Below are positions 2,021 through 38,130 of a stretch of 38,130 nt of DNA, piece after piece. The first letter of the stretch is position 1. Every line of letters starts with the position of its first letter. Position numbers and translations under genes: made by a program. The notes beneath the pieces are model-generated. The model was not told the DNA's origin and ran no database searches. It was given only the letters and a program-made list of their open reading frames with translations. The DNA comes from an uncultured Lentisphaerota bacterium (GTDB lineage Bacteria; Verrucomicrobiota; Lentisphaeria; Oligosphaerales; CAITYL01): the NCBI GenBank assembly GCA_903894975.1, contig CAITSE010000023.1, forward strand, positions 1 through 38,130, in the 5' to 3' direction.

Positions 2021-2118
2021 TTCCCTGACGGCATCCCGCGCCGAAATGACCGGCGGCGGACCTGACGGCATTTCATCCCCCCCGATCCGACAATCCGACC
2101 CATAAGGAGTCCCTGGCC

Positions 2119-15545: not shown

Positions 15546-15861
15546 GACTGGATTCGGAAGACGGTTGAATTCCCCTGCATCCCGGATGCGTTTTCCGGGG
15601 AAACCCCAAGGCCGACGACAAGACGATTCCACTCCAGCGTGACACAGGCAATCCTGCCTGCCTTCCTCCCACGCCAAGGCACGGCGAAGTCACGCCAAAA
15701 TAGTTCGGCATCAGTGCAGTAATCAGCTTCACGTCGTCAAATATGGTAACCGGCGCATTCCCGGCGTATACTTCTCCCGGTTTTGTTCCAGGCCTGACGC
15801 GAGGGTGACGTATGAGCGCCCGGTGACAAGGCCGGGATTGTTTCGCAAGAGGAGGTCGGCC

Positions 15862-18800: not shown

Positions 18801-21800
18801 CGCCGCGCCGGAACGCTGGCACCACGGCACCGGCCTGGTTTCCGCTGCCGTGGCCTTCCTCCTGACCCTGGTCTGCTTCCAATTCCGCCGCGCCCTGGCC
18901 GAACCCGTGCCCGCCATCCCCGCGCCGGCCCCGGATCCCGCCGCCCCAACCCGGCCCGGCGCCGTCTCCGCGGCCGCCCTGGTCACCATCCCGATCCTTT
19001 CCGCGGCGTTCTGGCTGTGCGGGAAAGCGCTCATCCTTCAGCTTCAAAATCACCACGGTCAGATTCCGTTTATCGCCGCCATCGCCTTGGTCTCCGCCAC
19101 CTTTTATGCCGCGGCGATTTATTTCCGCCAACGCCCGGCCGGAAGCGGCCTGTTCCATCTCTCCTGGCCGCTGCTCGCCGCCGGCATCGCCATGGGCTGC
19201 GATCAAGCCGGGTGCGAGGGGCTGGCCATGCTCGAATACCCGCTGCTTTGGACCGGTGTCGCGTTCACCCTCCTCACCGGAGTGGAAGCCCTTGCCGCAC
19301 GGCGGCAGGACTGGGCGGAAACGCTCCTCGCCCGGCCCCGGCGCGAGATCCTCGCCTGCGGCAGCATTCTGGTCACAGTAATCATCACCATGCTGGTCAT
19401 CCAACTTTCGGAATCCTACACCCGGCACACCGGCCTGCAAGCGCTGGCCATCTTCACCGCCGCCCAGCTCGTCTGGCATGCCCTGCGGACCTCGCAACGC
19501 CGGTTTGGCGCCGTACTTTTCGTGCTCACAACCGCCTGGCTGTTCGCCGCTCCGGACGCGGCCGAACGGAATTTCGGCGCGCTGCCGCTGTTCCTTTTGG
19601 CCGTCCTGACGGCGGACCTCGCCCTGGAAGGAGTCCCGGGGCTCCGCGCCTTCCTGCGTCCTCTCCAGGCCCCGTTCATCGCCGGCGTCACGCTTCTCGG
19701 CGCCTTTCTAGCCTTCCTGGCGGCCGGCCTTCCCGACTCCCTGATCCACGCCGTAGGGACCCAGGACCTGCTCAACCTCACCATTCCTCCGGCCGAAACC
19801 GGCATGCTCCTCGCCGCCATGCTCCTGATCGCCCGCACCCAGAACTGCGCGTTCTTTGTCCTCCCGGCGGCGGCACTCGGCTACCAACTTCTCCTGCTTC
19901 CCTGCACCCTGAACGAACTGTTCCGGCCGTGGCGGCTGGCGGACTTCGCCCTTGTCCTCTGCCTGCTGCCCTTCGCCGGCGGCATGCTGCGCACCTGCTG
20001 TCCGCGACTGCTGCAAGGGCCGACGCCGCAAGTGCCGGCCGCCGAAACCCTGCCCCAGGCGCCCTGGCTCACCATCCCGGCGCTCGGTCTCGCCCTGGGC
20101 GCCGCCTTCGGCCAAATGGCGCTGTCCTCGGCCGGAATCACCACCGACACCCGCGGCATGCAGACCCTCGCGCCGTTCGCCGCCGTCCTCGCCTTCGCCC
20201 TGGCCGGACTGTATTGGCGCCGGGGCGGGTTCTGGACTGTGGCAGCCGGACTGCTGCCCGCGGCCAACCTCTTCGCCATCGCCGTGCTCCGCGGCCGGGA
20301 ACTGCTGGACGCCCAGATGACGGAGGTCCACATCCTCTGCCTGGCCCTGGTCCTCACTCTGGCCGAGTTCGCCCTGGCCCGGAAACTCGTACTGAAAGCC
20401 GCGCTCACCACTGCCGCACACCGGCTGCACCTGGGCTGCGCCGCGCTGGCGGGAACGATCCTGCTCCTGATCGGCGTCAACTACCTGGCTAACCCGGACC
20501 TGACGACGATCCCGACCATCCGCTTCCTGACCTCGGGCCTGCTCGCCCTGGCCGCCGGACTCTATTTCCGCGGCGCCGCGCGCCGGCCGGAAAATCTGCC
20601 GACCCGGGACGGGCTCTGGCTGGAGAGCTTCTGGCACGCCGCCCTCGCCCTCGCCCTCTGGTGCGGCGCGTTAATGATCCCGGCCTTGCGGACCCCGCAC
20701 GCCGCGCTCTATGCGCTGGCGCTTCCGGCCCTGGCCTGCTGGGTGGCGGCGGAATTCTCCCGCCGAACCGCGCCGGCCGCCGCCCCGCCGCCCCGCCTCA
20801 TTCTCGCGGAACGCTTCGCCACCAGCGCCACCGTGTTCGCCGGACTCGTCCTGATCTTGTACGGCTCCCGCCTGCCCTTCCAGATGCTGCTCTTCCCGAA
20901 CCTCCCGCCCGACCTGCATCTCTACCACACCGGCGCGCCCGCCGCCGTGCTCATGGGCCTGATCCTGATCCGCATCCGCGGCCTCGGCGGCGCGACCTGG
21001 ACGGCGTTCACGGGCGGCCTCGCGCTCATGGCCGGCACGTACTTCAGCGTGACCTGGCTGCCCGGACTCTCGCCCTTTGACTTCCCCATGGCCGGCGCCT
21101 GGACCGCCCTTGGCGCGGCGCACCTGCTGATTTTGCTGAGCTACCAGCAGTCGCCGCTGCGCAGTTTCATCCAGGATCTTGGCGGCATTGGCGCGGAAGA
21201 ATGGCACGCGCACCGGCGGCAGTGGGGGCTGTTCCTGACCGCCGCGGTGCATGTCGCCGTCCTTTCCGGCCTGCTCCAGGACTATTCCACGCACAGCCTG
21301 GAGACCACGCCGCTCCTGCTGGCGCTCGCCACCGTCCTCCTCCACCAGGCCGTGATCGGGGCGCCCTGGGCCAAGGCCTATTATGTCCTCGCCGGGCTCG
21401 AAATTCTGGCCGCCCTGCACCTGGACTTCTTCTTGCCGGCCGGCGCCCCCGGCCTGATCCCGGCCAAACAAGTGGTCTGGTACCTGCTCACGCCATGGCT
21501 GGCCGCGGCGCTCCTGTGGTCCCGCCTCAAAGAATGGGTGCCTGCCCGGGCCGTCTGGAACAGCGCCGGAGGCCTGGCCCTGCTCTGCGCCGCGCACCTC
21601 GTTTATCACGGCCCGAGAACCGGCGTCGGCCTGCTCATCGCCCTCCTCATGCTGCTGGCGGCGCTGCGGACGCCGCGGCCGGAAGACGCCCCGCCGCCGC
21701 ACCCCCTGCCCGCGCTGCTGCTGGGCGCGCCGCTGTGGTTCGTCTATTTCGGCACACTCCGGCTCACCGGCGACCACGCCGACGGCTGGCGTCCGCTGCT

Positions 21801-22980
21801 CGCCGGCGCCGCCGCGCTGCTGGCCACCGGCATGCTCGCACGCTTCGCCGACGCGCTGCACGACAGGCTCCGCCAACCCGGCCGGCCGGAGGATTCCGCC
21901 CAGCCCGCTCCGGACCGTTTCCTCGCGCACGAAGTTCTCGATCTCTGCCGGCGCCGGACCGAGGCCGTCGCCCGCACCCTGCTGTGGCTGGCCTTCGCCA
22001 TCCTCTCTCTTGTCACCAGTCCTCGCAATGACAGCCTCGACATCATGCTGGCGCTCGCATTCGTCTGGGGCGTCGGTGCTGTGGCCTGGTACCGCGAAGG
22101 CCGGTTCCGCGACGGCGTCCTGCCCTACGCCGCCAGCCTGCTCAGCCTGGCCGGCGCCTGGATCGTCCTCCGGCGGTTGCTATTCCGCCACTTCGATTTC
22201 TGGACCTACGAGTACGACATCTGGCTTGGCCTCGGCGCCTCCATCGCCTTCAGCGCCGCCAAGCGCCTGGTCAGGCATCAGCAGCCGGGGCTCAGCCGCA
22301 CCATCACCGGCACCGTCTGGCTCCTGCCCGTCCTGCAATGCCTCTGGCTGCTGACCAACCACATGAGCGCCGACCTCACCCTGCTCGTGATCGGCATTCA
22401 GGCCATGCTCTTCGCCTGGCAGGGCGGCGGCAAGCGTGATTCCCCGTACAATGCCGTGGCCATGCTCGGCTTCGTCAGCTTCATCTGCCTGCTCTTCTGG
22501 GCCAAGCTCGACCTGCGCTGCATCCAGGCCTATGTCCTGCCCGCCGGATTTGGCGTGCTCGGCCTGCTTTGGCTGTTCGGCTCCCATGTCCCGCCACCCC
22601 TGCGCCACGCCATCCGCCTGGTCACCGTCCTCGGCATGCTCGGAAGCTGCGGCTATTATGCGCTGCTGGACAACCGCTACCCCGTCAGCTTCCACCTGAC
22701 CATGCTCCTGCTGTGCCTGATCGTGATGGCTTTCGGCCCGCTCCTGCGCGTCCGGCTCTACCTCGGCCTCGGCTTCGCCGGCTTTGCCACCGACCTGATC
22801 GCGTTGGTAGTCAAGGAGTTCCGGACTCTTGACCGTTCCCTGCAGATGATGGGCATCGGCCTGCTCCTGCTCCTGCTCGGCGTCGCCGTGGTCGGCGGCG
22901 CCATCTTCTACAAAACCAACCGCGACGCCCTCCGCGCCCGCTGCGCCAGTCTCGGCGCCAGATTCGGCGTCTGGGAATAA
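15862..22980 (+). CDS. Giant polytopic membrane protein (~2372 aa; DUF2339-like in character), N-terminal soluble region then dozens of hydrophobic segments
   Basis: Single uninterrupted ORF. GTG start at 15862 preceded by GAGGAGG (15849-15855); the ORF track start at 15805 is another GTG. Soluble ~430 aa, Pro-rich linker, then TM-rich from HIQPFLTANWYILAGLLMVVAGASLLAYFTWDKSLLVRYLFLPVLLAAF. Confidence 0.85.
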   Translation: MGENLVSAGKPQLALELVRQTVHGTSLSFAKIEPLLRKLLPRPEWEEGGTLYALQRLLLEQGVAEARDLAAQIHLGILKDAVQAGRARRCDPAHPWRTLAAATLAHLPPDLPVDWRDDAGALAILTRAVQLERDRGFLLTTTPDLYPPIRSLSEECQGQRQRLRTFSFFWNLIPPNLLWKDFTLPSGTALPAGADTDPAAADATRLADLAAAVTGSQPSTPQAKTALACLLAWPDRAAAEYILRLGSALPAVQAYAMHALALRTGNDYATWGEWADYLRRTMAERNWQQATASRLLSENRAELRLLWYTCQTPQPDPVLLEALTAAVAESAHRTVQPADFVRRREAVLTPADVARLQGLPVPPTAPAPPRPAGGLSIPPGLGLPPVLTEPIAPQSAAARLSPMSPPILPRIIPTPAPEPEKPAAPPEPSLWEEHIQPFLTANWYILAGLLMVVAGASLLAYFTWDKSLLVRYLFLPVLLAAFTGGLAELGLRLTRRHPDLRATGTFLLGGAICLLPANFMVLCRAGDDPQAARLLLPALALYAAAAGAGLWRWCGEVRRELRPLLALPLLAVNLLAVLGDMPGVRDAAAGHRSTLVPFTITAAVLLVLAVANRFLRLVLTRELLDAKCVPWFFGITLAATTLQVSAWRHFHLGITPHPRDYALAVILAGAALLRWERRAGELRNTGAAYGGESFLGYAALFLGILMAAGNQHLRVIALLLAGGIWLVQAPRRPGIVHYWIGVTLCLLGGAATGMLETFPKRRELNLLPELGFALALAAGAARALAGRFREPRLRQVALEIQPPILLVTALVAVLSQYHLRSAPWQTGLILLAVAGFFAVRATVTARRDWLHIAAVSAGLALPYLGCADMTEYRFDENTLGLGFGLLAAVWLAAARFLPSATWRRTGGRIVTAFGLAGIAGLLLRLLLACRPEIGGAELAGGVLLAVALGVTAWRARSRLPAMSAAGTLAVILPLFRVPAAAAPERWHHGTGLVSAAVAFLLTLVCFQFRRALAEPVPAIPAPAPDPAAPTRPGAVSAAALVTIPILSAAFWLCGKALILQLQNHHGQIPFIAAIALVSATFYAAAIYFRQRPAGSGLFHLSWPLLAAGIAMGCDQAGCEGLAMLEYPLLWTGVAFTLLTGVEALAARRQDWAETLLARPRREILACGSILVTVIITMLVIQLSESYTRHTGLQALAIFTAAQLVWHALRTSQRRFGAVLFVLTTAWLFAAPDAAERNFGALPLFLLAVLTADLALEGVPGLRAFLRPLQAPFIAGVTLLGAFLAFLAAGLPDSLIHAVGTQDLLNLTIPPAETGMLLAAMLLIARTQNCAFFVLPAAALGYQLLLLPCTLNELFRPWRLADFALVLCLLPFAGGMLRTCCPRLLQGPTPQVPAAETLPQAPWLTIPALGLALGAAFGQMALSSAGITTDTRGMQTLAPFAAVLAFALAGLYWRRGGFWTVAAGLLPAANLFAIAVLRGRELLDAQMTEVHILCLALVLTLAEFALARKLVLKAALTTAAHRLHLGCAALAGTILLLIGVNYLANPDLTTIPTIRFLTSGLLALAAGLYFRGAARRPENLPTRDGLWLESFWHAALALALWCGALMIPALRTPHAALYALALPALACWVAAEFSRRTAPAAAPPPRLILAERFATSATVFAGLVLILYGSRLPFQMLLFPNLPPDLHLYHTGAPAAVLMGLILIRIRGLGGATWTAFTGGLALMAGTYFSVTWLPGLSPFDFPMAGAWTALGAAHLLILLSYQQSPLRSFIQDLGGIGAEEWHAHRRQWGLFLTAAVHVAVLSGLLQDYSTHSLETTPLLLALATVLLHQAVIGAPWAKAYYVLAGLEILAALHLDFFLPAGAPGLIPAKQVVWYLLTPWLAAALLWSRLKEWVPARAVWNSAGGLALLCAAHLVYHGPRTGVGLLIALLMLLAALRTPRPEDAPPPHPLPALLLGAPLWFVYFGTLRLTGDHADGWRPLLAGAAALLATGMLARFADALHDRLRQPGRPEDSAQPAPDRFLAHEVLDLCRRRTEAVARTLLWLAFAILSLVTSPRNDSLDIMLALAFVWGVGAVAWYREGRFRDGVLPYAASLLSLAGAWIVLRRLLFRHFDFWTYEYDIWLGLGASIAFSAAKRLVRHQQPGLSRTITGTVWLLPVLQCLWLLTNHMSADLTLLVIGIQAMLFAWQGGGKRDSPYNAVAMLGFVSFICLLFWAKLDLRCIQAYVLPAGFGVLGLLWLFGSHVPPPLRHAIRLVTVLGMLGSCGYYALLDNRYPVSFHLTMLLLCLIVMAFGPLLRVRLYLGLGFAGFATDLIALVVKEFRTLDRSLQMMGIGLLLLLLGVAVVGGAIFYKTNRDALRARCASLGARFGVWE

Positions 22981-23244
22981 ACCGGGAGAGGGGCATCCTG
23001 CCCACTAACCCCGGGGGGCGGGTGTCCACACCCGGCAACACAGGCCGGCGGACTTCCAGCCCGGCGAAATTTCCGCCCGGCAGCGGCACGGCCCCCGCCC
23101 GAAACAAAAAAGTCTATTTGACTAGACATGGTTTATAAAGAATCCGCTCCCTCTCTTATGGATTGACTGCCAAACCTGTTTATAGTCTGGGGACAGGCCA
23201 TGGACCGTCCGGACATTCCGGACGCGCGGCCCAAGGACTCTTCC

Positions 23245-23859
23245 ATGAACCGCATCGGCACGGCATTGGTCATTTCCGGTCCCAGCGGCGCCGGTAAAAG
23301 CACTGTTTGCGCCCAGGTCCTGACGGCCTGGCCGGATCTGCGTTTTTCCGTTTCCTGCACCACCCGCACCCCGCGCCCCGGCGAGGTGAACGGAAAAGAC
23401 TATCATTTCTTGGCGCGCGCAGAGTACGACCGGCTCATCACCGCCGGCGAATTCCTCGAACATGCCGAGGTCCACGGCAACGGCTACGGCACCCTCCGCC
23501 GCGAAGTCGAACCGTTCCTGGAGCGCGGCGGCGACGTGCTGCTGGACATTGACGTCCAGGGCGCGCGCCAGGTCCGCCAACGCATCGCCGGCACACCCCT
23601 GGCCGGACACACCGTATTTACCTTTCTGGCGCCGCCGTCACTCGCGGTGCTGGAGCAACGGCTGCGCGGCCGCGGCACGGATGCCGAAGAAGTCATCCGC
23701 CGCCGTCTGGAAAATGCCCGGTGCGAACTGGCCGCCTGGCGCGAATACGAGTACCTGGTCATCAACGACCAGGTCACGGACGCCGCGGCCGACTTGCTGG
23801 CCATTCTCCGGGCCGGTCACTGCCGGAGCACGTCAGCGATGTGGGACCCGCTGGCATGA
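23245..23859 (+). CDS. gmk: Guanylate kinase
   Basis: ALVISGPSGAGKSTVCAQVL, SCTTRTPRPGEVNGKDYHFL, EFLEHAEVHGNGYGT, DIDVQGARQVRQ, FLAPPS, RRLENARCELAAWREYEYLVIND. Start at 23245 with AAGGA upstream. Confidence 0.97.
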   Translation: MNRIGTALVISGPSGAGKSTVCAQVLTAWPDLRFSVSCTTRTPRPGEVNGKDYHFLARAEYDRLITAGEFLEHAEVHGNGYGTLRREVEPFLERGGDVLLDIDVQGARQVRQRIAGTPLAGHTVFTFLAPPSLAVLEQRLRGRGTDAEEVIRRRLENARCELAAWREYEYLVINDQVTDAAADLLAILRAGHCRSTSAMWDPLA

Positions 23860-23882
23860 TCAGTCGCTGTGACAGGAAAAGC

Positions 23883-23987
23883 CTAGGGTTCGGGGTTCGG
23901 GGTTCGGGGTTCGGGGTTCGGGAGGAGGACGGCCCCCGTCGACCGCAAGTTTTCACGGGATTCTGAACCCCGAACCCTGAACCCTAG
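23883..23987. repeat. Inverted repeat with heptamer arms (GGGTTCG)5 / (CYGAACC)3
   Basis: CTAGGGTTCGGGGTTCGGGGTTCGGGGTTCGGGGTTCGGG (23883-23922) and CTGAACCCCGAACCCTGAACCCTAG (23963-23987). Confidence 0.88.
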
Positions 23988-24089
23988 ATTTTTCCCCGAA
24001 TCGACCCGCCGAAACTCGCCGACGCCTAACCCTGCCCGACTTGGCCGGGCATGTCAGGAATTGACGGTTTTTTATGCCGGTCGGCCCGA

Positions 24090-24120
24090 TTGACTTGCCC
24101 CCTTCGCCGGATTATATAAT
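24090..24120 (+). promoter_or_regulatory. Candidate sigma-70-like promoter for the pil gene cluster
   Basis: TTGACT (24090) with TATATA at 24113 (N17) or TATAAT at 24115 (N19). It lies inside the longest ORF version, supporting the later GTG start at 24206. Confidence 0.5.
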
Positions 24121-24205
24121 AGGCCGCCATGTTGCCAGCGACATGGCGTGCCGACTGGACTGCGACGAATATTCGCATTGCGCACCTTATACGGAGACAC
24201 GGGCC

Positions 24206-25921
24206 GTGGCCGAGAACGACGAACTGTTGGTCGATCTTCTGATCGGCAAAGGGCTCATCACCCAGGAACAGGCCGCAGCCGCGCGGGCCAAGGCCGAGCA
24301 GGACGGCACCACCATCATCGACAACATCATCATCCTCGGCTTCCTCGCCGAGGAAACCGTGATGATGTTGCTGGCGTCCGAGTATGGGATGGAGTGTTTC
24401 GACCTGTCCGGCTACAAAATTCCGCCGGAAGTCATTGCGGCGATGCCTCCGGACATTGTCCGGCGCTACAAGGTGGTGCCGGTGATGCGGAACGGCCAGA
24501 CCCTGACCGTGGCGCTGGCGGACCCCACCGACGTCGAGACCCTGGACTCCCTGCGCTACATCCTCAAGACCGACGTTGAGGGCGTGCTGGTCTCCCGCAA
24601 GCAGATCAAAGAGGCGATCACCCATTATTACAGCACGATCGAGGAGAGCGTCGACAGCTTCCTGGAGGACTTCACCGAAGCCAACGTCGAAGAAGTTGCG
24701 CAAGTTGGCGGGATGGACATGGGCGACGCAAAGGCGACCGACGACGACGCGCCGATCATCCGCCTGGTTTCCCTGCTCATCCTGGAGGCCTACCGCAGCC
24801 GCGCGTCCGACATCCACCTGGAGCCGCTGGAGCGCCGCTTCCGCGTCCGCTACCGCATTGACGGCCAGCTCAAGGAAATTGACGAACCGCCGCCGAAGTA
24901 TTTGCAGAACAACATCATCAGCCGCCTCAAGATCATGGCGAAGATGGATATTTCCGAGCACCGCGTCCCGCAGGATGGCCGCATCCAGATCAACGCCATG
25001 GGCAAGAGCTTGGATCTGCGCGTGAACGTGCTGCCGACCCGCCACGGCGAATCTATCGTCATGCGTATCCTGGACAAGACCAGCGTACAGCTCGGCATTC
25101 CCGAACTCGGTTTTTTTGTCGACGACCAGCAGACCATCGACCGGATCGTCAGTTTTCCCGACGGCATCTTCCTGGTGACGGGGCCGACGGGGTCGGGCAA
25201 GACCACCTCGCTCTACGCCTTCCTCAACACCCTGAACAAGCCCTCCCGCAAAATCATCACGGTGGAAGACCCGGTGGAATACGAGTTCGCCGGCATCAAC
25301 CAGTGCCAGGTCAACGAAGACGTCGGCATGTCCTTTGCCAAAGCCCTGCGCGCCATGATGCGTCAGGCGCCGAACGTGATCATGGTCGGTGAAATCCGCG
25401 ACATGGAGGCGGGTGAAATCGCCATCAATGCGGCGCTCACGGGACACTTGGTCTTCAGCACCTTGCACACCAACGACGCCCCCTCGGCCATCACCCGCAT
25501 GATCGACATCGGCATCAAGGAATTCCTGATCGCCTCCGCCCTGCGCGCCGTCATGGCCCAGCGCCTGGTCCGGCGCATCTGCCAAAAATGCGCCAAACCC
25601 TACCAGGCCACGGAAGCCGAGCTGGAGTCGCTGCACCTGACCCCCGACTTCTTCAACGGCATGGAACTCAAGCGCGGCGCCGGCTGCCCGGACTGCAACA
25701 ACCGCGGCTACCGCGGCCGGATGGGCATCTATGAAATCTTTATCGTCGGCGAGCAGATCCTCGCCCTCATCTATGAGCGCGCCTCGTCCGGCATCATCCG
25801 TGAAAAAGCCCGATCCCTGGGCATGCGCACCCTGCGGGAGGACGGCCTGCGCAAGGCCGGCGCCGGCCTGACCTCCCTGGAAGAGGTGATCGAAGAAACC
25901 GCCGCCGACGCGAGCGACTGA
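24206..25921 (+). CDS. GspE/PilB-family assembly ATPase (first copy)
   Basis: MshEN-like N-terminus, GPTGSGKTTSLY, GEIRDMEAGEIAINAALTGHLVFSTLHTNDAPSAITR, CxxC pairs CQKC/CPDC. GTG start at 24206. Confidence 0.95.
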   Translation: MAENDELLVDLLIGKGLITQEQAAAARAKAEQDGTTIIDNIIILGFLAEETVMMLLASEYGMECFDLSGYKIPPEVIAAMPPDIVRRYKVVPVMRNGQTLTVALADPTDVETLDSLRYILKTDVEGVLVSRKQIKEAITHYYSTIEESVDSFLEDFTEANVEEVAQVGGMDMGDAKATDDDAPIIRLVSLLILEAYRSRASDIHLEPLERRFRVRYRIDGQLKEIDEPPPKYLQNNIISRLKIMAKMDISEHRVPQDGRIQINAMGKSLDLRVNVLPTRHGESIVMRILDKTSVQLGIPELGFFVDDQQTIDRIVSFPDGIFLVTGPTGSGKTTSLYAFLNTLNKPSRKIITVEDPVEYEFAGINQCQVNEDVGMSFAKALRAMMRQAPNVIMVGEIRDMEAGEIAINAALTGHLVFSTLHTNDAPSAITRMIDIGIKEFLIASALRAVMAQRLVRRICQKCAKPYQATEAELESLHLTPDFFNGMELKRGAGCPDCNNRGYRGRMGIYEIFIVGEQILALIYERASSGIIREKARSLGMRTLREDGLRKAGAGLTSLEEVIEETAADASD

Positions 25922-25968
25922 GCAAGGAACCCGGGCCGCCCCGCGGCCCGCAGCTTGGAACCGGACCC

Positions 25969-27669
<1,701 letters not shown>

Positions 27670-27712
27670 TCCCCGGCCGGTCCCGAACCGGCTTTTGTGA
27701 AAGAAGGTTCCC

Positions 27713-28795
27713 ATGTCGATCGAAATGTCCGACATGCTGCAAATGGTGGTGGACGAAGGCGCCAGCGACCTGCATCTGCCCGTCGGCTCGCCCCCGGTCC
27801 TGCGCATCCACGGCGGGTTGCACCCGCTGGACGTGCCGTCCCTCGTTCCCGAGGACACCGAGCGGCTGATGAAGTCGATCACCTCCGATGCCAACCAGCA
27901 AAAGTTGCGCGAAGTCGGCAGCGTCGACTTCGGCTTCGCCTTCGGCTCCAAGGCCCGGTTCCGCGTGAGCTGTTTCCGGCAGAAGGGCTCCTTCGGCCTG
28001 GTTCTGCGCTGCATTCCCCGCACGCTGCTGACCCTGGAACAGATCGGCCTGCCGCCGGCAATCAAGGACATCCTCTTCAAGCCCCGCGGCCTGGTTCTGG
28101 TTACCGGGCCCACGGGCTCCGGCAAATCCACCACGCTCGCCTCCATGATCGACGTGGTCAACAACCAGCGCGACTGTCACATCATCACCGTCGAAGATCC
28201 TATCGAATTTTACCACGAACACAAGAACAGCATCATCACCCAGCGCGAACTCGGCGTCGATGTCCCCTCCTTCGAAGAAGCCCTGCGCCGCGCCCTGCGC
28301 CAGGATCCAGACGTGATCCTCGTGGGTGAAATGCGCGACCTGGAGACCATCAAGGCCGCGGTCACCGCCGCGGAAACCGGCCATCTGGTCTTCGCCACCC
28401 TGCACACCACCGGCGCCGCGGAAACCGTCGACCGCATTGTCGACGCCTTCCCCACCGATCAGCAGGAGCAGATCCGCGCCCAGCTTGCCACCTGTCTGAT
28501 CTGCGTCATCTCCCAGGTGCTGCTCGCCCGCGTAGACAAGCCCGGCCGCGTTGCCGCGTTCGAGATCATGATCTCCACCCCCTCGATCCAGGCGCTCATC
28601 CGCGACAACAAAACCTTCCGCATCACCTCCGACATCCAGACCGGCGCCAAGTGGGGCATGAACACCCTCGACGCCCACCTCCTTTCCCTGTACGAAACCG
28701 GCAAGATCGGCTATGGTGAACTGATCACGACCTGCCGGGACAGTGAAAGCATTGTGCAGAAACTCCAGCAGTCCGGCACCGGCGCGCGCCGCTAG
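27713..28795 (+). CDS. pilT: PilT-family retraction ATPase
   Basis: [88 protein letters not shown]. Confidence 0.95.
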
Positions 28796-28840
28796 CCTAA
28801 ATTATTCACGAACCGGTTCCAACCTGTGAGGTGATTCCCC

Positions 28841-30145
28841 ATGGCGATGAAATTTGCCTACACTGCAATGGACGGCCAGGGCAAGGAACAGCACGGCCGC
28901 GTCGAGGCGGAAAATGAACAGGAAGCCTCCGCCAAGCTCAAACAACAGGGGCTTTTCCCCACCGGCATCAAGGAAATCCGCTCCGGCGGCGGCGGCCGCG
29001 GCCTTCAGGCAGGCGGCGCCACCGCGGCGAAAAAGGGCGGCCTGCTCAGCATGCAGCTCGGCACCCCGACCCTGAACACCAAAAAGCTTTCCACCGCCAC
29101 CCGCCAGCTCGCCACCTTGCTCAACGCCGGCCTGCCCCTGGTCCGCGCCCTGCGCACCCTGGAACGCCAGGCCAAGAAGGATATCTCCCTACGGCGCATC
29201 ACCGGCGACCTGGCCAATTCCGTCGAGGGCGGCAGCACCTTCACCGAAGCCCTTCAGGCCCACCCCAAAACCTTCAGCAAACTCTACATCAACATGGTCC
29301 GCGCTGGCGAAGCGTCCGGCGCCCTCGAAGGCGTGCTCGAGCGGCTGGCCGTTTTCATGGAAAAAGGACAGCGCATCGCCGGCAAGGTCAAGTCCGCCAT
29401 GGTCTACCCGGTGATCGTGCTCGTGGTCGCCATGACCATCACCAGCGGCTTGATGGTCTTCGTCGTCCCCAAGTTCGGCAAGATCTTCGAGGAAATGCTG
29501 CCGGGCAGCAAACTGCCCGGGCTCACCCGCTTTGTGATCGGGATCAGCAACGCCATGGTCGCCCCGTTCACCAACCTTAACAACTGCATCATCTACGCCA
29601 TCCTCCTCGCCGTACTCGCGGTGGCCTTCTCCTTCGTCCGTAAAACCAAGTTCTGGAATTACTACCGGGATCTACTGGCCGTCAAGCTGCCGCCCATCAA
29701 TACCCTGGTGATACGAACTACCGTCTCTCGCTTCTGCCGCACCCTGGGCACCCTGATGCAATCCGGCGTCTCCGTGCTCCAAGCCCTGCAGATCGTCCGC
29801 GACACCGCCGGCAACGAAATCGTCTCCCGAGCGGTGCAGACCATCCATGACGCCGTCAAAGAAGGCGAAAACATGTCCAAGCCCATGTATGAAGCTGACA
29901 TCTTCCCCGGCATGGTCGTCTCCATGGTCGAAGTCGGCGAAGAAACCGGCGCCCTGCCGGAAATGCTCAACCGCGTGGCCGACATCTATGAGGAGGAAGT
30001 GGATCGCGCCGTGGAAACCCTGACATCCCTCATCGAACCGTTCATGATGGTCTTCCTCGCCATCGTCATCGGCACCATTGTCATCGCCCTGTTCCTGCCG
30101 CTCGTCGAACTCATCAAAAACATCGGCAGCCAGTCGGCGGGGTGA
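28841..30145 (+). CDS. pilC: PilC/GspF-family inner-membrane platform protein
   Basis: KFAYTAMDGQGKEQHGRVEAENEQEASAKLKQQGLFPTGIKEI, ATRQLATLLNAGLPLVRALRTLERQ, GEASGALEGVLERLA, VEVGEETGALPEMLNRVADIYEEEVDRAV. Confidence 0.95.
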   Translation: MAMKFAYTAMDGQGKEQHGRVEAENEQEASAKLKQQGLFPTGIKEIRSGGGGRGLQAGGATAAKKGGLLSMQLGTPTLNTKKLSTATRQLATLLNAGLPLVRALRTLERQAKKDISLRRITGDLANSVEGGSTFTEALQAHPKTFSKLYINMVRAGEASGALEGVLERLAVFMEKGQRIAGKVKSAMVYPVIVLVVAMTITSGLMVFVVPKFGKIFEEMLPGSKLPGLTRFVIGISNAMVAPFTNLNNCIIYAILLAVLAVAFSFVRKTKFWNYYRDLLAVKLPPINTLVIRTTVSRFCRTLGTLMQSGVSVLQALQIVRDTAGNEIVSRAVQTIHDAVKEGENMSKPMYEADIFPGMVVSMVEVGEETGALPEMLNRVADIYEEEVDRAVETLTSLIEPFMMVFLAIVIGTIVIALFLPLVELIKNIGSQSAG

Positions 30146-30397: not shown

Positions 30398-33300
30398 ATG
30401 ATGATGGTGTTTATCCGGTTTTTCCGGCCGCTCGTAACCCTATCAAAAAAACACCCCATCGCCGTCAAAGTTTTCTTGTTTTGTCTTTTCCTGTCTCCTT
30501 CTGCCGCCATGGCAGTAGATGAGTTTTCCTACGATTGGCGACTCGCCAAGGAGTTGCAGGAACACCAGGCCTTGGCGGATTATGCCGGCCGGCAGATTCA
30601 GATCATGCTGCTCAACCCGCGGTATGCGGAACACAAAGAGCCGCTCCAGCTTGAACAGGCCCGGATCCTTTACAACACCGGCCGTTCCGCCCAGGCTGAC
30701 GCCATCGTCGCCCAGATCCCCTCCGCCAGCCCGGCCGGATTGAATGCCCGGCTCCTCCAGGCGCGCGCCGCGTTCTCGCGCAAAGATCTGGCCACCGCCA
30801 AAAAATTGTATGCGGACTATTTCGCTAAGCAGGACAAGCCGGTCGACGACAGCGAAGACGCCATCCGCGAGTTCCGCCAGGCCGTGGTGATCTACTCCAA
30901 GGTGTTCGAGCAGGAAGGCAATGCCGTACAGTCCGGCAAAATCCTCGACCTGCTGGCCAAAATTCCCAAGGACGGCGACGACGCCATCAGCGAACGCGAA
31001 CTGCGTTTCCGTAAAGCCAAACAGGTGCTGGACACGCTGGAGCAGTCGTCCCTCGATGGCAAGCCCGTGGACAGCAAGGTCGTGGATGGGGTTCGGACGG
31101 ACTTGGAGAAGTTGCAATGGAGCACGGACATGATCATGGCCCGGTCCATGGTTGAAGTCGCCCGCGCCTATTATCTACAGAAAAATTATGACCAGGCGCT
31201 CAAGACCATCAAGAACAGCAAAGGCGTCTTTGTCGACTTCGACCAGGCCCTGAAGGCGGAAAAGAAGTCCGACCTTTCTCCTCTCCCCGGCGCCTGGCTG
31301 TATTTTGCCAAAGCCCAGATCGCCCTTCTCCCCCAGCTTAAGGCCAAAGATCCGGCCGCGGCGGAAAAGATGCTGAGCGACGTCATCCAACTGCTCCAGA
31401 AAATCCGCGAGCAGTATCCCAAATCCGAATTTGCCGTGCCCGCCACCACCGAATACTCCCGGGCCCGGGCCCTCACCAAATCCCTTTTCAACAAAGAGCC
31501 GGCCGGCGCGACGGCCGCCGCCGGCGGCGACGCCCGGACTCCCGCGGTGGACGAGGGCGCCCTGATGGTCAAAATCCAGGAAGCCACCCAATTTGCCAGC
31601 GCCAAAAAACCCGCCGAGGCCGCCGACCTTTATCTGGCAGCACTCCAGGGCCTGGGCCGCCACAATCTCCCCGCCACAATCGAAGCCGGCGCCGGGCTGG
31701 CGGCGACTTATACGGCGTTAAACAAACCCCTGCTCGCCCAGGCCGCGGTCCTCTATCTTTCCGATATCGCCCCCGAAGACGATGCCGTGCAACAGGCGCT
31801 TTTCCAAACCGGGCAGGCCCTGGCCATCGGCGCCAAAACCATTCCCGACATTACCAAACGGGAGGCCCAGATTGACGACGGCATGATGCTGTTTGAGCGG
31901 CTGGTTCAGATCGCGCCGAGGCATCCGCGCGCCCCGGACTTGGCCTATGCCGTGGCGGAAAACCTCTACGGCCGGGCGTCCGGCCTGGGCAAGCAAACCC
32001 AGGGCATGCCCGAAGGCCCCGCCAAAGAACAGCTCAAAAACCGCGCCCGGGAAGCCTACCTCGCCGCCGTGCCCAAATACCTGGCGGTCACCCAGCTTTT
32101 CCCCGCCCATGAACGGGCAGTCCGTTCCTGGTACAAGCTGGGCTGGATCTATTATTCCACCGACAACCCGGAAAAGGCGGCGGCGGCCTTCCTGAAGTAT
32201 GTCGCGGAAGAAAGCAATCCCGACCCAAAGATCGGCGAGGATCGGCTGGAGGCGAAATTCCGCGCCGCCGACCAGATGCTCTTCAACAACCGGCCCGAAG
32301 AAGCCCGCGTCCAGCTCCAGGAACTGCTGGTCTGGCTGGAACCGGCCGAGGCGGCCACCCGCAACCTGGATCTCAATTCCGCCGTGGCCAAACGGGTGAA
32401 GGAAGACGCCACCGCGTACCTGGCCTGGTCCTATGATTTGCAGGGCGAGGGGCTCCGGCCCAAGATCGCCGGCCTGGAAAACCGGATCGCCGAAGGGCGC
32501 GCCCGGGCCGAGGAAATTGACGCGCGGCGCGCCCAGATCACCCGCTCTCTGGACAATTTTGCCGCCGAACAGGACAAGGCGCGCAAAGAAGAGACCGCCC
32601 TGGAAAAAGCCCTGACCAGCGAACCAGGTGTCACCGAACGAGCCAAAATTTTCGCCGAGGAAACTCAGGGCAAAAGCGGACCGGAACTGGAAATCGCCAA
32701 ACGGATTGCCGAGGACAAAGTCCAGAAAATCGCCAGTGAAGCCGTAAAAAACGAACAGACCCGCCTGCGCGGTGAGGCCGGGGAGCTGAAGGAAGAACGC
32801 GAAACCCTCTTCCGCCTCAAGGACGAGCAGGACGGCCGGCTCAAGCTTCTGACCACGCGGGCCGCCACGGCCAAACCGGAAGCCGCCGACGCCGAAGCCC
32901 GTCTGGCGGATGCCGACAGCAAATGGACCTCAGCCCAAAAGGCCGTGACGGAATGGATCGCGGCGCTGGCCAAGGCCCAGACCGAAAACACCAAACTGGA
33001 TCAGGACACGGAATCCTTGAAGGCCGCGGTGGCCCAGGCCAAAGACACCGACACCCGCGACGAAGCCCGCCGCGCCTGGCAGCAGGCCATGGGCCGGCTC
33101 CGGGAAGTTCAAAAACAGCTGCGCGACCTGCGCGATCAGGAAGTGCGCATGCTCAAACTCCAGAAAACGGACTTGCCGGAACTGCAGCAGAAAAAAGCGC
33201 AGGCCGCCACTGCCGCCACCGCCGCCCGCAGCCGGGCGACCGGCCTGGAAGCCGAACAACGGCTGGCCGAAGCTGAAGGCTCCCTGATCCGGGCCCGCCT

Positions 33301-34555
33301 GGAAGCCGGCAACCGGGCGGAGGCGCGCAACGCCGCCGCCGTGAATGTGCTCAAGAACAAAGGCATCTCCGGCATTCCCAACGACCCGGAATATGCCGCC
33401 GCCACCAAAGCGGAAATCGACGCGCGCCGCAAGACTTTGGCCGGCCGCGAGGCCATGGACACGGTCCGCACCGCCGACCTCAGAAAAGAAGACGCCGCCA
33501 TCGTCACGGAGCGGGCGGAACTGGGGAAAACCCTGGAGGCGATGCAAGCCGAACGCCAGCCCCAGCAAAAACGTATCATCGAACTCAAGACAGAAGCGGA
33601 AACGCGGTTCTGCGCCTACCTCGCCGCCTATCCGCAGGGCAAACAGATCCCGGACGTCCTGTCGCGCCGGGGTACCATTTTGTTGGAACTCAAACGGATT
33701 GACGATTCCAAGCGCGTCCTTACCGAACTTTCCACCAAATTTCCGGAGAGCAAAGCCGCCAAGCAAGCCTATTTCAACATGGGCCGGGCCCTGTTCGAGA
33801 CGGGTGACACCGCCGCCGCCGCCGAGGCGTTTGCCAAAGCGCTGACTACCGCTCGCGACCTTCCCGCCGGCAACCTCACCTATATCGTCGAAAAAATGCT
33901 GTCCGGAGACCAACCCCAACTGGCCCGGGACGCCGCGTTGGAACTGCTGGCCCGGGCCGGCAACCCGGCTCACCCGGATCAGGCTTTCCTCGCCAAGTTC
34001 AAGGAACAGATTTCCGTCCAAGCCGCCGAGGCCCTGCTCGCCACCGGCGAAGACCAGGACCGGGCCCGCGCGGTGGAAATCCTCGCCGCCGTACTCAAAC
34101 AGAACGATCGAACCGCCTATTTCTTCCAAATCAAGTTTCTGTTAGCCCGGGCCAAGCGCGAAATGAAGCCGCCAGACCTTGACGGGGCGGTTCAGGATCT
34201 AGCCGAAGTCACGCAGTACGCCACCGATCCCTTGTCCAAGGCCCGGGCCTTCTGTGAAACGGGCGACTTGCTCGTCCGTTCCGCCGGTAACGACCCAGCC
34301 AAGCTCAAGCCGGCCGCCGGACGCTACATGCAGGTCGTGCTCATGGCCGATCCCGCCAATGTCGAACTCCGTCCCTGGCTAGAGCGTGCGCTAGTTTCCG
34401 GCGCCGGCATCTTTGCCAAGATCGGCGACACTGCCGCCTTGGAGAAATTTAAGAAGCAATACGCGGAAACCTTCCCCAAGGGCGCCAAGGCCGGTGAAAT
34501 GCGGGGCCTCGGCGCCACGCCGGCTCCAGCCGCCGGCGGCGCAGGGAAGAAATGA
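30398..34555 (+). CDS. Large secreted/periplasmic TPR and coiled-coil protein (1385 aa)
   Basis: N-terminal signal-like segment (VKVFLFCLFLSPSAAMA); TPR-like helices (e.g. RSWYKLGWIYYSTDNPEKAAAAFLKYV, AKQAYFNMGRALFETGDTAAAAEAFAKAL); central charged coiled-coil stretch. Confidence 0.8.
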   Translation: MMMVFIRFFRPLVTLSKKHPIAVKVFLFCLFLSPSAAMAVDEFSYDWRLAKELQEHQALADYAGRQIQIMLLNPRYAEHKEPLQLEQARILYNTGRSAQADAIVAQIPSASPAGLNARLLQARAAFSRKDLATAKKLYADYFAKQDKPVDDSEDAIREFRQAVVIYSKVFEQEGNAVQSGKILDLLAKIPKDGDDAISERELRFRKAKQVLDTLEQSSLDGKPVDSKVVDGVRTDLEKLQWSTDMIMARSMVEVARAYYLQKNYDQALKTIKNSKGVFVDFDQALKAEKKSDLSPLPGAWLYFAKAQIALLPQLKAKDPAAAEKMLSDVIQLLQKIREQYPKSEFAVPATTEYSRARALTKSLFNKEPAGATAAAGGDARTPAVDEGALMVKIQEATQFASAKKPAEAADLYLAALQGLGRHNLPATIEAGAGLAATYTALNKPLLAQAAVLYLSDIAPEDDAVQQALFQTGQALAIGAKTIPDITKREAQIDDGMMLFERLVQIAPRHPRAPDLAYAVAENLYGRASGLGKQTQGMPEGPAKEQLKNRAREAYLAAVPKYLAVTQLFPAHERAVRSWYKLGWIYYSTDNPEKAAAAFLKYVAEESNPDPKIGEDRLEAKFRAADQMLFNNRPEEARVQLQELLVWLEPAEAATRNLDLNSAVAKRVKEDATAYLAWSYDLQGEGLRPKIAGLENRIAEGRARAEEIDARRAQITRSLDNFAAEQDKARKEETALEKALTSEPGVTERAKIFAEETQGKSGPELEIAKRIAEDKVQKIASEAVKNEQTRLRGEAGELKEERETLFRLKDEQDGRLKLLTTRAATAKPEAADAEARLADADSKWTSAQKAVTEWIAALAKAQTENTKLDQDTESLKAAVAQAKDTDTRDEARRAWQQAMGRLREVQKQLRDLRDQEVRMLKLQKTDLPELQQKKAQAATAATAARSRATGLEAEQRLAEAEGSLIRARLEAGNRAEARNAAAVNVLKNKGISGIPNDPEYAAATKAEIDARRKTLAGREAMDTVRTADLRKEDAAIVTERAELGKTLEAMQAERQPQQKRIIELKTEAETRFCAYLAAYPQGKQIPDVLSRRGTILLELKRIDDSKRVLTELSTKFPESKAAKQAYFNMGRALFETGDTAAAAEAFAKALTTARDLPAGNLTYIVEKMLSGDQPQLARDAALELLARAGNPAHPDQAFLAKFKEQISVQAAEALLATGEDQDRARAVEILAAVLKQNDRTAYFFQIKFLLARAKREMKPPDLDGAVQDLAEVTQYATDPLSKARAFCETGDLLVRSAGNDPAKLKPAAGRYMQVVLMADPANVELRPWLERALVSGAGIFAKIGDTAALEKFKKQYAETFPKGAKAGEMRGLGATPAPAAGGAGKK

Positions 34556-34606
34556 TTCCGTGCCGGAAAGCCGGTACGGATGACGAAGGAGACAAGGAAT
34601 CATACC

Positions 34607-35365
34607 ATGAACTTCACCCGGATCATGCTCTGGACGGCGGCCTTCTGCCTGACCACCCTCCCGGTTTTTGCCCAAAAGGCGGGCGACTGGTACATCGTCA
34701 AGAAAAACAACGAACGAGTTGACGGTGTCCGCATCACCTATGATCCTGCGGCCGGCTACCGCGTGTTCCAGGCCGAAAGCGGCATTTCCACCACCGTCCG
34801 CCGGGACGACGTCCAGTCCGTGGTCACACCCAAGCCGGCGGAAATCGCCGCGCTGGACAAGAGCCTGGAAGCGGGCGCCGCCGACGCCGTTCTGGCCGCG
34901 GCCCCGGGGCTGATGACCAAATACCAGTATCTCGGCTGGAGCGCCTACCTGCGCTATCTCGAAGGCATGGCCAAACTGACCAAAAAAGACGGCGACGGCG
35001 CCATGCAGGCCTTCAAGGCCGGCTTGGAAAACCCCGACCAGTTCGAAGCCCAGCTGACGCGCGGTCGCATTCAGGTCCTGCTGTTGCAGCAGAAAAATCA
35101 GGAAGTCCTCTCCCTGATCGACAAGATGATCGCCGACGCCAAGTCCGACCGCGAAGCCGCCTTTGCCTTCAACACCCGGGCCCGCGCCTACGCCGCCATG
35201 GAAAACCGGAAGAAAGATGCCGTCCGGGAATACCTCAAAACCTTGCTGGCCACCAAGGCCGACCAGGCTCCGACCGAGCGCGACGAAGCCCGCCGCGCCG
35301 CCGTGGCCCTGCTCAAGGAAATGGGCGACAACGCCGCGGCCGCGGATGTTGAAAAGATCAAGTAA
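34607..35365 (+). CDS. Secreted TPR-like hypothetical protein
   Basis: Signal peptide MNFTRIMLWTAAFCLTTLPVFAQ; helical repeats; start at 34607 with AAGGAG upstream. Confidence 0.7.
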   Translation: MNFTRIMLWTAAFCLTTLPVFAQKAGDWYIVKKNNERVDGVRITYDPAAGYRVFQAESGISTTVRRDDVQSVVTPKPAEIAALDKSLEAGAADAVLAAAPGLMTKYQYLGWSAYLRYLEGMAKLTKKDGDGAMQAFKAGLENPDQFEAQLTRGRIQVLLLQQKNQEVLSLIDKMIADAKSDREAAFAFNTRARAYAAMENRKKDAVREYLKTLLATKADQAPTERDEARRAAVALLKEMGDNAAAADVEKIK

Positions 35366-35426
35366 CGGCCTCAGCTTTTTTGCATAACTGACAGAATCAG
35401 AAAACGAACCGACAGGAGAATACATC

Positions 35427-36209
35427 ATGAAACGCTGGATGAAGCTGTGGAACTTGGCGGCGGTGACGACCCTGACCCTTCCGGCCTTGGCGGCCCGGGC
35501 ACAGGAAGTGGCAGCGGCGGCCGGTGGGGAAGCCCCCGCGGCGGCGGCTGAGGCGCCGATGGGCGGCGGCAGCATGTATCAAATTATCTTCGGCGGCGGT
35601 TTCTCCCATGCCATCGCCTTTATCCTGCTGATCATCACCTCGGTGGCGATCCTCGCCTTAATCATCGACGGCGTCCTCACCATCAAGCGCACCAAACTCA
35701 TGCCCGCCGAACTGGTCGATGGCGTGCGTGAAGCCCTCAATCGCGGCGACCTCAACGGCGCCGTTCAAACCTGCGAGGGCAATCCCGGCGCCCTCTCCCG
35801 CATCCTGCTCACCGCGTTCTCCAACATCCAGGAAGGCTATGAAGTCATCCAGGAAGCCGTTGCCTCCAGCGCCGAGTATGAAAACGAAAAACTCATCCAA
35901 CGCATTAATTACCTCAACGTCTGCGGCCAGCTCGGCCCCATGATCGGCCTCTTCGGCACCGTCATGGGCATGATCTCGGCCTTCGCCGGCCTGGGCGCCG
36001 GCGCCGCCGGCGCCGCCAAGACCGGCGCGCTGGCCAGCGGTATCTCCACCGCCCTGTGGACCACCGTGCTCGGCATCGGCGTCGCCATTCCCGCTCTCTT
36101 TGCCTTCGTGGTGATCAAGAACAATGCCACCCGCCTGATCCTGGAAATGCAGCACACCGTGCTGGATCTGATCAAGGTGCTGCGCACCGCCGAAGTCGAG
36201 CAGCAGTAA
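35427..36209 (+). CDS. MotA/TolQ/ExbB-family proton channel protein
   Basis: NVCGQLGPMIGLFGTVMGMISAFAGLG and GISTALWTTVLGIGVAIPALFAFVVIKN; N-terminal signal-like segment and Ala-rich extension. Confidence 0.93.
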   Translation: MKRWMKLWNLAAVTTLTLPALAARAQEVAAAAGGEAPAAAAEAPMGGGSMYQIIFGGGFSHAIAFILLIITSVAILALIIDGVLTIKRTKLMPAELVDGVREALNRGDLNGAVQTCEGNPGALSRILLTAFSNIQEGYEVIQEAVASSAEYENEKLIQRINYLNVCGQLGPMIGLFGTVMGMISAFAGLGAGAAGAAKTGALASGISTALWTTVLGIGVAIPALFAFVVIKNNATRLILEMQHTVLDLIKVLRTAEVEQQ

Positions 36210-36276
36210 GACGGGCGGAGTCCGCGGGCCACCTTCGGTCCGCGGCGGCGACGGACGACCGACGGGAGATGCCTCG

Positions 36277-36705
36277 ATGGCAATGAAAAAACTCAAAAAA
36301 GCGGAAACCAATCTGGAAATCCCGATTGTTCCGTTGATCGATATTGTGGTGGAATTGATCATCTTCTTCGTCATCACCGGCGCCCAGCAGGACGCCCTGT
36401 TCGACGATACGATCAAGCTGGCCTATGCCAAGCATGTCACGCCTGAAAAAGCGGCGGAAAAGAAGGTCGTGATCATCAACATCAACAAAAAAGGCCTCTG
36501 CAACATTTCCAACAACCCGGTCGACCTGCCAGGCCTGCGGTCCTACCTCAAAGACGTCCGCTCCGATCCCGCCCTGGGCGTGGATACTCCCATCATCCTG
36601 CGCTGCGACGCCGAAACCGCCTATGAAAGCGTCGATGCCGTGATGCGGGTGATCACTGCCGCCAGGCTCTACAAAGTTCGCATCGCCGCCGTCACCGGCA
36701 AGTAA
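36277..36705 (+). CDS. ExbD/TolR-family protein (first copy)
   Basis: LEIPIVPLIDIVVELIIFFVITGAQQ; periplasmic domain DTPIILRCDAETAYESVDAVMRVITAARLYKVRIAAV. Confidence 0.88.
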   Translation: MAMKKLKKAETNLEIPIVPLIDIVVELIIFFVITGAQQDALFDDTIKLAYAKHVTPEKAAEKKVVIININKKGLCNISNNPVDLPGLRSYLKDVRSDPALGVDTPIILRCDAETAYESVDAVMRVITAARLYKVRIAAVTGK

Positions 36706-36769
36706 GGCCGCGCCCCGGCGCCGCCACCCGCGCCCACCGCCCGCTCCCACCGCCAAGGATTCCCGACCC

Positions 36770-37177
36770 ATGCCCAAAAAACAGGAAAAGCCGGAACAGG
36801 TCCTGACCTTTCCCATGGCGCCCATGCTGGACATGATGTTCCAGATTCTGGTCTTCTTCGTCGCCACCTACCGCACCATCACCCCCGAGGCGCACCTGGT
36901 CGTGAACCTGCCCGCCCCGGCCCGCCCGACCTTGAATAAAAAGCCCCCCACGCTCCTGGAAATCCGGATCCTGCCCGATCAATACCTGTTGAACGGGGCG
37001 GTCAAAAAATTCGAAACCCTGCAGGACGACCTGACCACCCTCGCCAGACAGGACTCGGAACTAACGGTCATGATCAAGGTCAGCCCCAAGTCCAAGGTCG
37101 ACAACCTGGTGCAAGTTCTTGATATTTGCAAAACCAACAAACTCAATAACTTGAATTTGTTGACACTGACGCAGTAA
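36770..37177 (+). CDS. ExbD/TolR-family protein (second copy)
   Basis: LTFPMAPMLDMMFQILVFFVATYR; KKPPTLLEIRILPDQYLLNGAVKKF; immediately downstream of the first ExbD. Confidence 0.85.
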   Translation: MPKKQEKPEQVLTFPMAPMLDMMFQILVFFVATYRTITPEAHLVVNLPAPARPTLNKKPPTLLEIRILPDQYLLNGAVKKFETLQDDLTTLARQDSELTVMIKVSPKSKVDNLVQVLDICKTNKLNNLNLLTLTQ

Positions 37178-37201
37178 GCTTCGAATGGAGAAGCCCTTTT
37201 C

Positions 37202-38130
37202 ATGGCCGATGATCCGCAATTGACCGCAGCCGATCCGGAGGCTCCGCCCGCCGGAGAGCCGGTCGCGGCCATGCCGCTGAACGTGGAGGAGGTGCTCGAA
37301 GAGTACCGCCGCCGGCAGATGATTGAGCACATGACCGGACCCATGGTCTCGGTCATCGTCCATCTGGTCGTGCTGGTGGTCTGCTTCTTTTTCATGGTCG
37401 CGCCGGTGGATGTGACACCCAAGGATTACGAAGTAGAGATCAAGGACATCCAAGTCAAGGAACTGCAGGAAAAGGTCCAGGAAAAGCTGCAGGAAATCGT
37501 CAAGAACGCGGATAACACCCCCGTGCCGACGGTGGACAAACCGGCGGGCGCCGGCGAATCGGAAGCCTCGGAAGTGACCAACAGCCTGGACTCGAACATC
37601 GCCCAACAGGATGTCTCGATTGAAGGCCTGTCCGACGTGAAATTTTTCGGCGAATCCCCGATCCGAATCGCCGGCGTGTATGCCGGGCGCAGCGCCTCGG
37701 GCCGCGCCGGCATGATGGGCGGTGGCGGTGGTGGCGGCGGCCGGGGTAGCGGCCCGACAGCGACAACGGAGTCCGCGGTGCTCCGAGCCCTGCGCTGGCT
37801 GAAAGCGAACCAGAGCGCGGACGGTTCCTGGTCGCCCCAGTTCCCCGGCGCCATGACCGGCTTGGCGCTGCTGGCTTTCCTGGCCCATGGCGAGACCCCC
37901 TCGCCGGAATGCAAAGAATTTGGCGAAACCGTCAACAAAGGGCTGCAATGGCTGACGGCCACAATGATGAAAGCCAACGTCGTGGACGGCAAGGAATACA
38001 GCCACGCCATCGCCACCTACGCCCTTTCCGAAGCCTACGGCATGACCAAGATTCCGGCCCTGAAGCCCGCGATGGAAAAGGGGTTGGCCACGATCATCGC
38101 CGGTCAGCAGGCGGGCGGCGGCTGGGATTA
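37202..38130 (+). CDS. Single-TM protein with Gly-rich linker and prenyltransferase/squalene-cyclase-type alpha-toroid repeats (C-terminus beyond window)
   Basis: Open-ended ORF: MADDPQLTAADPEAPPAGEPVAAMPLNVEEVLEEYRRRQMIEHMTGPMVSVIVHLVVLVVCFFFMVAP... GMMGGGGGGGGRGSG... TESAVLRALRWLKANQSADGSWSPQFPGAMTGLALLAFLAHGETPS... VNKGLQWLTATM. Confidence 0.82.
   Translation, partial: MADDPQLTAADPEAPPAGEPVAAMPLNVEEVLEEYRRRQMIEHMTGPMVSVIVHLVVLVVCFFFMVAPVDVTPKDYEVEIKDIQVKELQEKVQEKLQEIVKNADNTPVPTVDKPAGAGESEASEVTNSLDSNIAQQDVSIEGLSDVKFFGESPIRIAGVYAGRSASGRAGMMGGGGGGGGRGSGPTATTESAVLRALRWLKANQSADGSWSPQFPGAMTGLALLAFLAHGETPSPECKEFGETVNKGLQWLTATMMKANVVDGKEYSHAIATYALSEAYGMTKIPALKPAMEKGLATIIAGQQAGGGWD

Follow-up and report, generated by a model that had tools for sequence, protein, structure and literature searches.

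Ton and Tol are the two well-studied users of the ExbB/ExbD class of motor, working with a TonB- or TolA-type arm. What does such a motor move when the protein encoded in the place of TonB ends in an alpha/alpha toroid? The question is raised by a stretch of 38,130 nucleotides (the window), which is an entire contig (G000:C23) of a 4.46-Mb Lentisphaerota assembly of 376 contigs and 89% completeness, with Lentisphaerae/Lentisphaeria as its closest relatives among named genomes; all absence calls given here are limited by assembly incompleteness. An ORF scan of positions 30398-38130 yields six open frames on the plus strand in the order TPR (1385 aa)-TPR (261 aa)-ExbB-ExbD-ExbD-[TM + alpha-toroid] (Table 1), with the place, strand and domains that an earlier note on this DNA had assigned to them.

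Table 1. Features of the window in and before the toroid operon, with the basis of each assignment.
Feature	Position	Strand	Basis
PilB-type ATPase (two), PilT-type ATPase, PilC/GspF	24074..30145	+	Pfam T2SSE, MshEN, T2SSF
ORF 1, large exported TPR protein, 1385 aa	30398..34555	+	ORF scan, Pfam
ORF 2, second exported protein, 261 aa	34580..35365	+	ORF scan; without a Pfam family over cut-off
ORF 3, ExbB/TolQ-family motor subunit, 260 aa	35427..36209	+	MotA_ExbB
ORF 4, ExbD/TolR paralog 1, 142 aa	36277..36705	+	ExbD
ORF 5, ExbD/TolR paralog 2, 135 aa	36770..37177	+	ExbD
Toroid-headed transducer, first 309 codons, open at contig end	37202..38130	+	ORF scan, C339 overlap
TM helix with GPMVSVIVH; Ser50 and His54 correspond to Ser-xxx-His of TonB/TolA	37340..37405	+	Alignment
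Putative D-box-like strand YEVEIKD, 22 residues past the His	37427..37447	+	Pattern and position compared with PMC12215075; function inferred
Conserved pre-toroid motif SPIRIAGVYAGRSASGR	37655..37705	+	Arg and Gly-Arg near-invariant in the family; common to vWA/YfbK protein P0001
Start of alpha/alpha toroid (remainder in C339, L031:141-813)	37754..38130	+	AlphaFold model of homolog, Foldseek PDB matches

The toroid gene runs off the contig, and the 140 terminal bases of the window match exactly the first 140 of another contig of the assembly (G000:C339), an identity typical of an assembly-graph overlap. The only other close genomic match to the gene is a paralog with 76% protein identity, which is too diverged to be mistaken for a 140-base exact overlap; this paralog (G000:C206, L032:10072-11649, minus strand) is full-length and has no motor of its own. 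Extending the contig, as the earlier note had proposed, thus completes the gene: translation of the joined sequences gives a toroid protein of 533 aa. It is followed in C339 by rpsO (ribosomal protein S15) and then by pnp, whose product (PNPase) was assigned from its sequence, and not by a tonB gene.

When named genomes were searched with an alignment of the toroid protein, 469 relatives turned up. Of these, 80 loci were kept, and their gene order was scored with profiles built on the proteins of the window itself. The full order TPRbig-TPR2-ExbB-ExbD-ExbD-toroid on one strand recurs in 38 of the 80 kept loci, far beyond chance, and about 12 more are consistent with it but cut by contig ends. 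The conserved loci stem from Lentisphaeria, Kiritimatiellae and Verrucomicrobia, so that comparable gene sets, suspected by the earlier note, do exist across PVC classes. The isolate Oligosphaera ethanolica DSM 24202 carries the whole operon (L048), which makes it an isolate in which the role is testable. Strong toroid matches (E <= 1e-69) were obtained in 57 of 145 genomes sampled over the phylum. With TPR2 taken as marker of the core, both TPR2 and a strong toroid match are found in 44 of these genomes, TPR2 only in 12, the toroid only in 13 and neither in 76 (Fisher p = 9e-15, shared ancestry ignored). Some genomes have the core without a linked toroid, with toroids encoded elsewhere. At loci L127, L133-L139, L141, L142 and L144-L146 the TPR-TPR-ExbB-ExbD-ExbD core stands without an adjacent transducer and is followed by mutL or unrelated genes.

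We then characterized the motor. The window ExbB, which has an exported-looking N-terminal extension, matches Pfam MotA_ExbB over the cut-off (2.4e-26). Among the NCBIfam models TolQ scores best for ExbB (1.6e-21) and TolR for ExbD1, both far under the tolQ/tolR cut-offs. The ExbD domains of both paralogs exceed the Pfam cut-off (1.9e-19 for paralog 1 and 4e-20 for paralog 2), and the membrane Asp is present in each (PLIDIVV and PMLDMMF, respectively). Across loci it is kept in 94 of 96 copies, the remaining two being cut by contig ends. ExbB residues were numbered on what we take to be the E. coli ExbB and TolQ reference sequences, whose numbered residues agree with those in PMC12215075. The equivalents of Ser34, Thr148, Thr181 and Pro190 are all present in the window ExbB and are conserved among 40 copies of its family (38/40, 40/40, 40/40 and 39/40, respectively). 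The equivalent of Trp38, the contact of the TonB His, is Leu in the window and unconserved in the same 40 copies, which counts against the docking model described below. Judged by these residues the motor looks competent, and the presence of two different ExbDs suggests that one of each sits in the ExbB pore.

Cryo-EM of the E. coli Ton and Tol motors has revealed a Ser-x3-His-x6-Leu-x3-Ser motif common to TonB and TolA, of which Ser-His is the conserved part touching ExbB and TolQ and the His is essential; past the membrane, the TonB D-box strand 45-ISVTMVT-51 meets ExbD and the suspected R-box of TolA, 50-IDAVMVD-56, meets TolR (PMC12215075). The membrane helix of the toroid protein reads GPMVSVIVHLVVLVVCFFFMVA. 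Its GPxxSxxxH pattern played no part in the alignment of 15 relatives, yet all 15 have the Gly, Pro, Ser and His unchanged. Ser-xxx-His is kept in 72 of 81 near-full-length members and the His alone in two more. The remaining positions of the full SHLS motif, Leu and the second Ser, show no conservation. His conservation was counted on alignment A1 and an unselected set; alignment A2 was left out because its rows had been picked by a Ser/Thr-xxx-His pattern. Several core-bearing lineages have Asn or Pro where the docking His would be, and three operon copies lack the His; these departures, like those at the Leu and the second Ser, weigh against the docking model. A rule that the His is lost only without the motor core fitted one genus (10 of 10 sampled toroids of family f22) but is contradicted by the core-bearing genomes with Asn or Pro.

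The strand that follows the helix resembles a D-box in pattern and position, and a true TonB from the same genome (at C239) carries a similar strand, YEVTVEE, about 25 residues past its His as counted by eye. On sequence grounds the front half of the transducer is TonB/TolA-like, comprising a predicted docking helix and a putative D-box-like strand. The description 'without a canonical TonB' in the earlier note thus holds for the head, which has no TonB_C domain, and fails for the front half.

The head itself is a toroid according to an AlphaFold model, a fold search and Pfam, and a vWA/YfbK fold was not encountered at the C-terminus. In the model of the O. ethanolica homolog the toroid spans residues ~140-480, mostly with pLDDT >90, and is preceded by a low-confidence tether. 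The best PDB matches in Foldseek are alpha/alpha toroids, namely GH76 mannanases, squalene-hopene-cyclase-like proteins and AprG. Pfam returns for the window protein SQHop_cyclase_C alone, at a sub-threshold score, and repeated QxxDGSW-type motifs give a profile-search match to squalene-hopene cyclase (8e-16). TonB_C (PF03544) matches none of 62 relatives and is absent from the 533-aa window protein, whose C-terminal end is the toroid. The full-length protein, these relatives and the downstream rpsO-pnp pair together rule out a hidden TonB_C domain or a tonB gene just downstream. The toroid therefore occupies the TonB position in place of the TonB C-terminal domain, as the earlier note had proposed; of the findings named there as speaking against its reading (a TonB_C domain, a downstream tonB, an unconserved gene order) none occurred.

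The toroid shares its fold and its QxxDGSW-type repeats with squalene-hopene cyclases and has the fold of other alpha/alpha toroids (GH76, AprG), but differs in that it is tethered to the membrane on the periplasmic side, next to a motor, and in that the catalytic DxDD is unconserved. The search for catalytic residues that the earlier note had suggested finds no DxDD in the window toroid, a D.DD string in only 8 of 62 relatives and no invariant Asp-Asp pair in the toroid alignment. A terpene cyclase identity was dropped for the lack of DxDD in the window toroid. Alignments of the family show many invariant aromatic and polar residues, indicating a surface or cavity with a conserved task. In these genomes, an annotation as squalene cyclase or prenyltransferase may conceal a motor component.

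The two exported proteins complete the gene set. The 1385-aa protein, encoded by the first gene of the operon and in register in the conserved loci, has a signal peptide, TPRs at its ends and a coiled-coil stretch in the centre (Pfam TPR_1, 2.1e-11; a weak match to tol_pal_ybgF, 1.7e-9, lies under the cut-off). The AlphaFold model of the 261-aa protein (pLDDT 91.3) comprises a small N-terminal beta domain followed by TPR-like helix pairs, which bears out its earlier description as TPR-like; its closest PDB matches are the TPR proteins MamA and BamD.

Elsewhere in the window genome there are two ordinary TonB_C proteins, one of them adjoining its own ExbB, and the toroid operon is therefore a parallel system. 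A TonB-dependent receptor plug was not found in this genome. Two further genomes of one family (G004 and G012) contain the full operon, with no TonB_C and no receptor plug found; thus the toroid system need not serve TonB-dependent receptors. The operon shares with TonB-ExbB-ExbD the motor and the Ser-xxx-His helix and resembles it in the putative D-box-like strand past the membrane, but dispenses with TonB_C and with the receptors, and has two ExbD paralogs and two TPR genes. With TolQ-TolR-TolA it has in common a TPR protein in the operon, the Ser-xxx-His helix and motor subunits that score slightly nearer to TolQ/TolR; it differs in having no TolA C-terminal domain, TolB or linked Pal.

Gene order, fold, motif conservation, co-occurrence and the absence of TonB_C are direct observations; proton driving, docking, pulling and a partner are inferences, with homology as the ground for the driving of the toroid by pmf. 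Taken together, the observations make it probable that the operon encodes a force-transduction machine of the TonB/TolA class with a toroid as distal head. The arguments are the complete six-gene order in nearly half of the loci across PVC classes, the conservation of a helix motif by which TonB and TolA dock (PMC12215075), the D-box-like strand with its parallel in the genome's own TonB, the retained ExbB Ser/Thr/Thr/Pro network and ExbD Asp, the co-occurrence of TPR2 and toroid, the confident toroid with toroid PDB matches behind a disordered tether, and the operons kept in G004 and G012. In such a machine an ExbB pentamer with the ExbD1/ExbD2 pair in its pore would draw on the proton gradient. 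The toroid protein would be the transducer, its Ser-xxx-His helix docking on ExbB and its post-membrane strand binding ExbD, and a mostly disordered tether would carry the toroid into the periplasm. There the toroid, rather than working as a terpene cyclase, would take over from the TonB/TolA C-terminal domain as the head that grips, seizing a partner that is then pulled or remodelled by the motor. With the two exported TPR proteins the operon may supply periplasmic partners or adaptors of its own. The toroid head suggests that nutrient receptors are not the only partners on which cells pull with such motors. A toroid transducer that is spread across classes of Verrucomicrobiota and present without TonB-dependent receptors points to another kind of pmf-driven envelope work.

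Neighbouring genes suggest the cell envelope, broadly, as the place of action. General envelope upkeep at the outer membrane or in division, as for Tol-Pal, is the job we favour, with a probability well below one half. Rather unlikely is the sub-case of the force-transduction reading that commits itself to a role as Tol-Pal substitute, in which motor and toroid, working where the cell divides, would constrict or stabilise the outer membrane by pulling on a partner that binds it or peptidoglycan. The preference of ExbB for TolQ and of ExbD1 for TolR among the NCBIfam models argues for it, but their scores fall far short of the respective cut-offs. The genes after the C206 toroid paralog are RodA/FtsW, FtsA and FtsZ, and one Oligosphaeraceae genome has FtsA and a tubulin-like gene downstream of the operon itself; this linkage to division genes is, however, limited to these two genomes. 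Also in favour, LptE-type and BamD/YfiO-type genes lie divergently upstream of the operon at about 1000-2670 (minus strand) of L063, L070 and L104, recorded under Kiritimatiellia, Kiritimatiellae and Spartobacteria, with Pfam support on L063. TolB_N matches none of 26 relatives, all of which have OmpA-type domains, but the absence of TolB is uninformative since it gives only 7 weak matches in the 145 genomes of the phylum, with or without a toroid. The argument for a Tol-Pal replacement from missing TolB was dropped for this reason.

An improbable reading takes the toroid for a head of GH76-like fold in the periplasm, either an enzyme or a glycan binder, in a system that works with type IV pilus parts in the import of polysaccharides or in surface attachment. 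In its favour, GH76 mannanases are among the best fold matches, weak Pec_lyase matches occur in 20 of 62 toroid relatives, and the invariant aromatic/polar set is large. On the other hand, no glycoside hydrolase Pfam exceeds the cut-off in the window toroid protein, which also lacks DxDD, and the family has no invariant Asp-Asp pair. PilT-PilC lies just upstream of the operon in the window and in nine Lentisphaeria loci, and pilus-centred glycan uptake loci have been described for Akkermansiaceae (PMC13174399); yet this pilus linkage does not extend beyond one lineage, and other loci have mutL or different neighbours instead. An obligate pilus partner was dropped because the neighbourhood differs between lineages. 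In the window, gmk, two PilB-type ATPases, the PilT-type ATPase and PilC/GspF occupy positions 23200-30145 (plus strand) directly before the operon. The pilus genes end 253 nt before it on the same strand, and we do not claim them as operon members. A very long open frame of ~2392 codons (15805-22980, plus strand) lies upstream of the guanylate kinase gene.

An ordinary Ton system serving TonB-dependent receptors through a merely unrecognised TonB domain shares motor class and docking motif with the toroid operon but is very improbable, and a receptor-linked Ton system was rejected, given the toroid at the protein end, the lack of TonB_C among the relatives, the separate true tonB genes in a genome where no plug was found, and the G004 and G012 operons with neither TonB_C nor plug.

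The layout has a published precedent in PVC operons of the type TPR-tolQ-tolR-tolR-transducer with vWA heads (Williams-Jones et al. 2025, PMC12204202). Both in these and in the toroid operon a TPR gene, a tolQ-like gene and two different tolR-like genes precede a transducer with an SHLS-type helix, a motor box (putative in the toroid protein) and a disordered tether. In contrast, an alpha/alpha toroid here replaces the distal vWA/YfbK fold, and a second small TPR protein belongs to the set. The text of PMC12204202 contains neither 'toroid' nor 'prenyltransferase', and no description of a toroid combined with ExbD was found in the open-licence literature. The layout is thus already known from the vWA-headed operons and the toroid head is what is new, so that the 'notable variant' expected by the earlier note is one in its head, but not in its closely similar gene arrangement.

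A zf-HC2/TM/vWA/YfbK protein, P0001, is encoded in the window genome (G000:C165, L033:8164-12153, minus strand) and has a counterpart, L188, in G002. P0001 contains a near copy of the post-membrane strand and linker of the toroid proteins (SPIRISGVYAGRSAAGR), with 36% identity to the toroid protein over 116 aa (E = 6e-6) and the strand, the linker and a SPIRIxGVYAGRSAxGR motif in common. The same segment is found in its counterpart from a second genus of the family and not in the other vWA proteins examined; P0001 has no Ser-xxx-His helix. Judging from the sequence, the shared segment may be a docking site and tether fitted to two heads. The strand, linker and GRxxxGR-type motif of the toroid proteins recur in vWA/YfbK proteins of the window genome and of one related genus. 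On this ground we tentatively consider that the conserved PVC TPR-TPR-ExbB-ExbD-ExbD motor could be a general power take-off, in which the docking segment and the linker stay the same while the head behind them is exchanged, toroid and vWA/YfbK being two types of head. As part of the same tentative proposal, toroid heads would be encoded away from the motor, often in several copies. Standalone TM-toroid proteins, often in tandem, occur in genomes of genus g55 (e.g. L119, L147-L156), where the helix is without Ser-xxx-His and the TPR2 core is absent; they probably represent a derived, uncoupled use.
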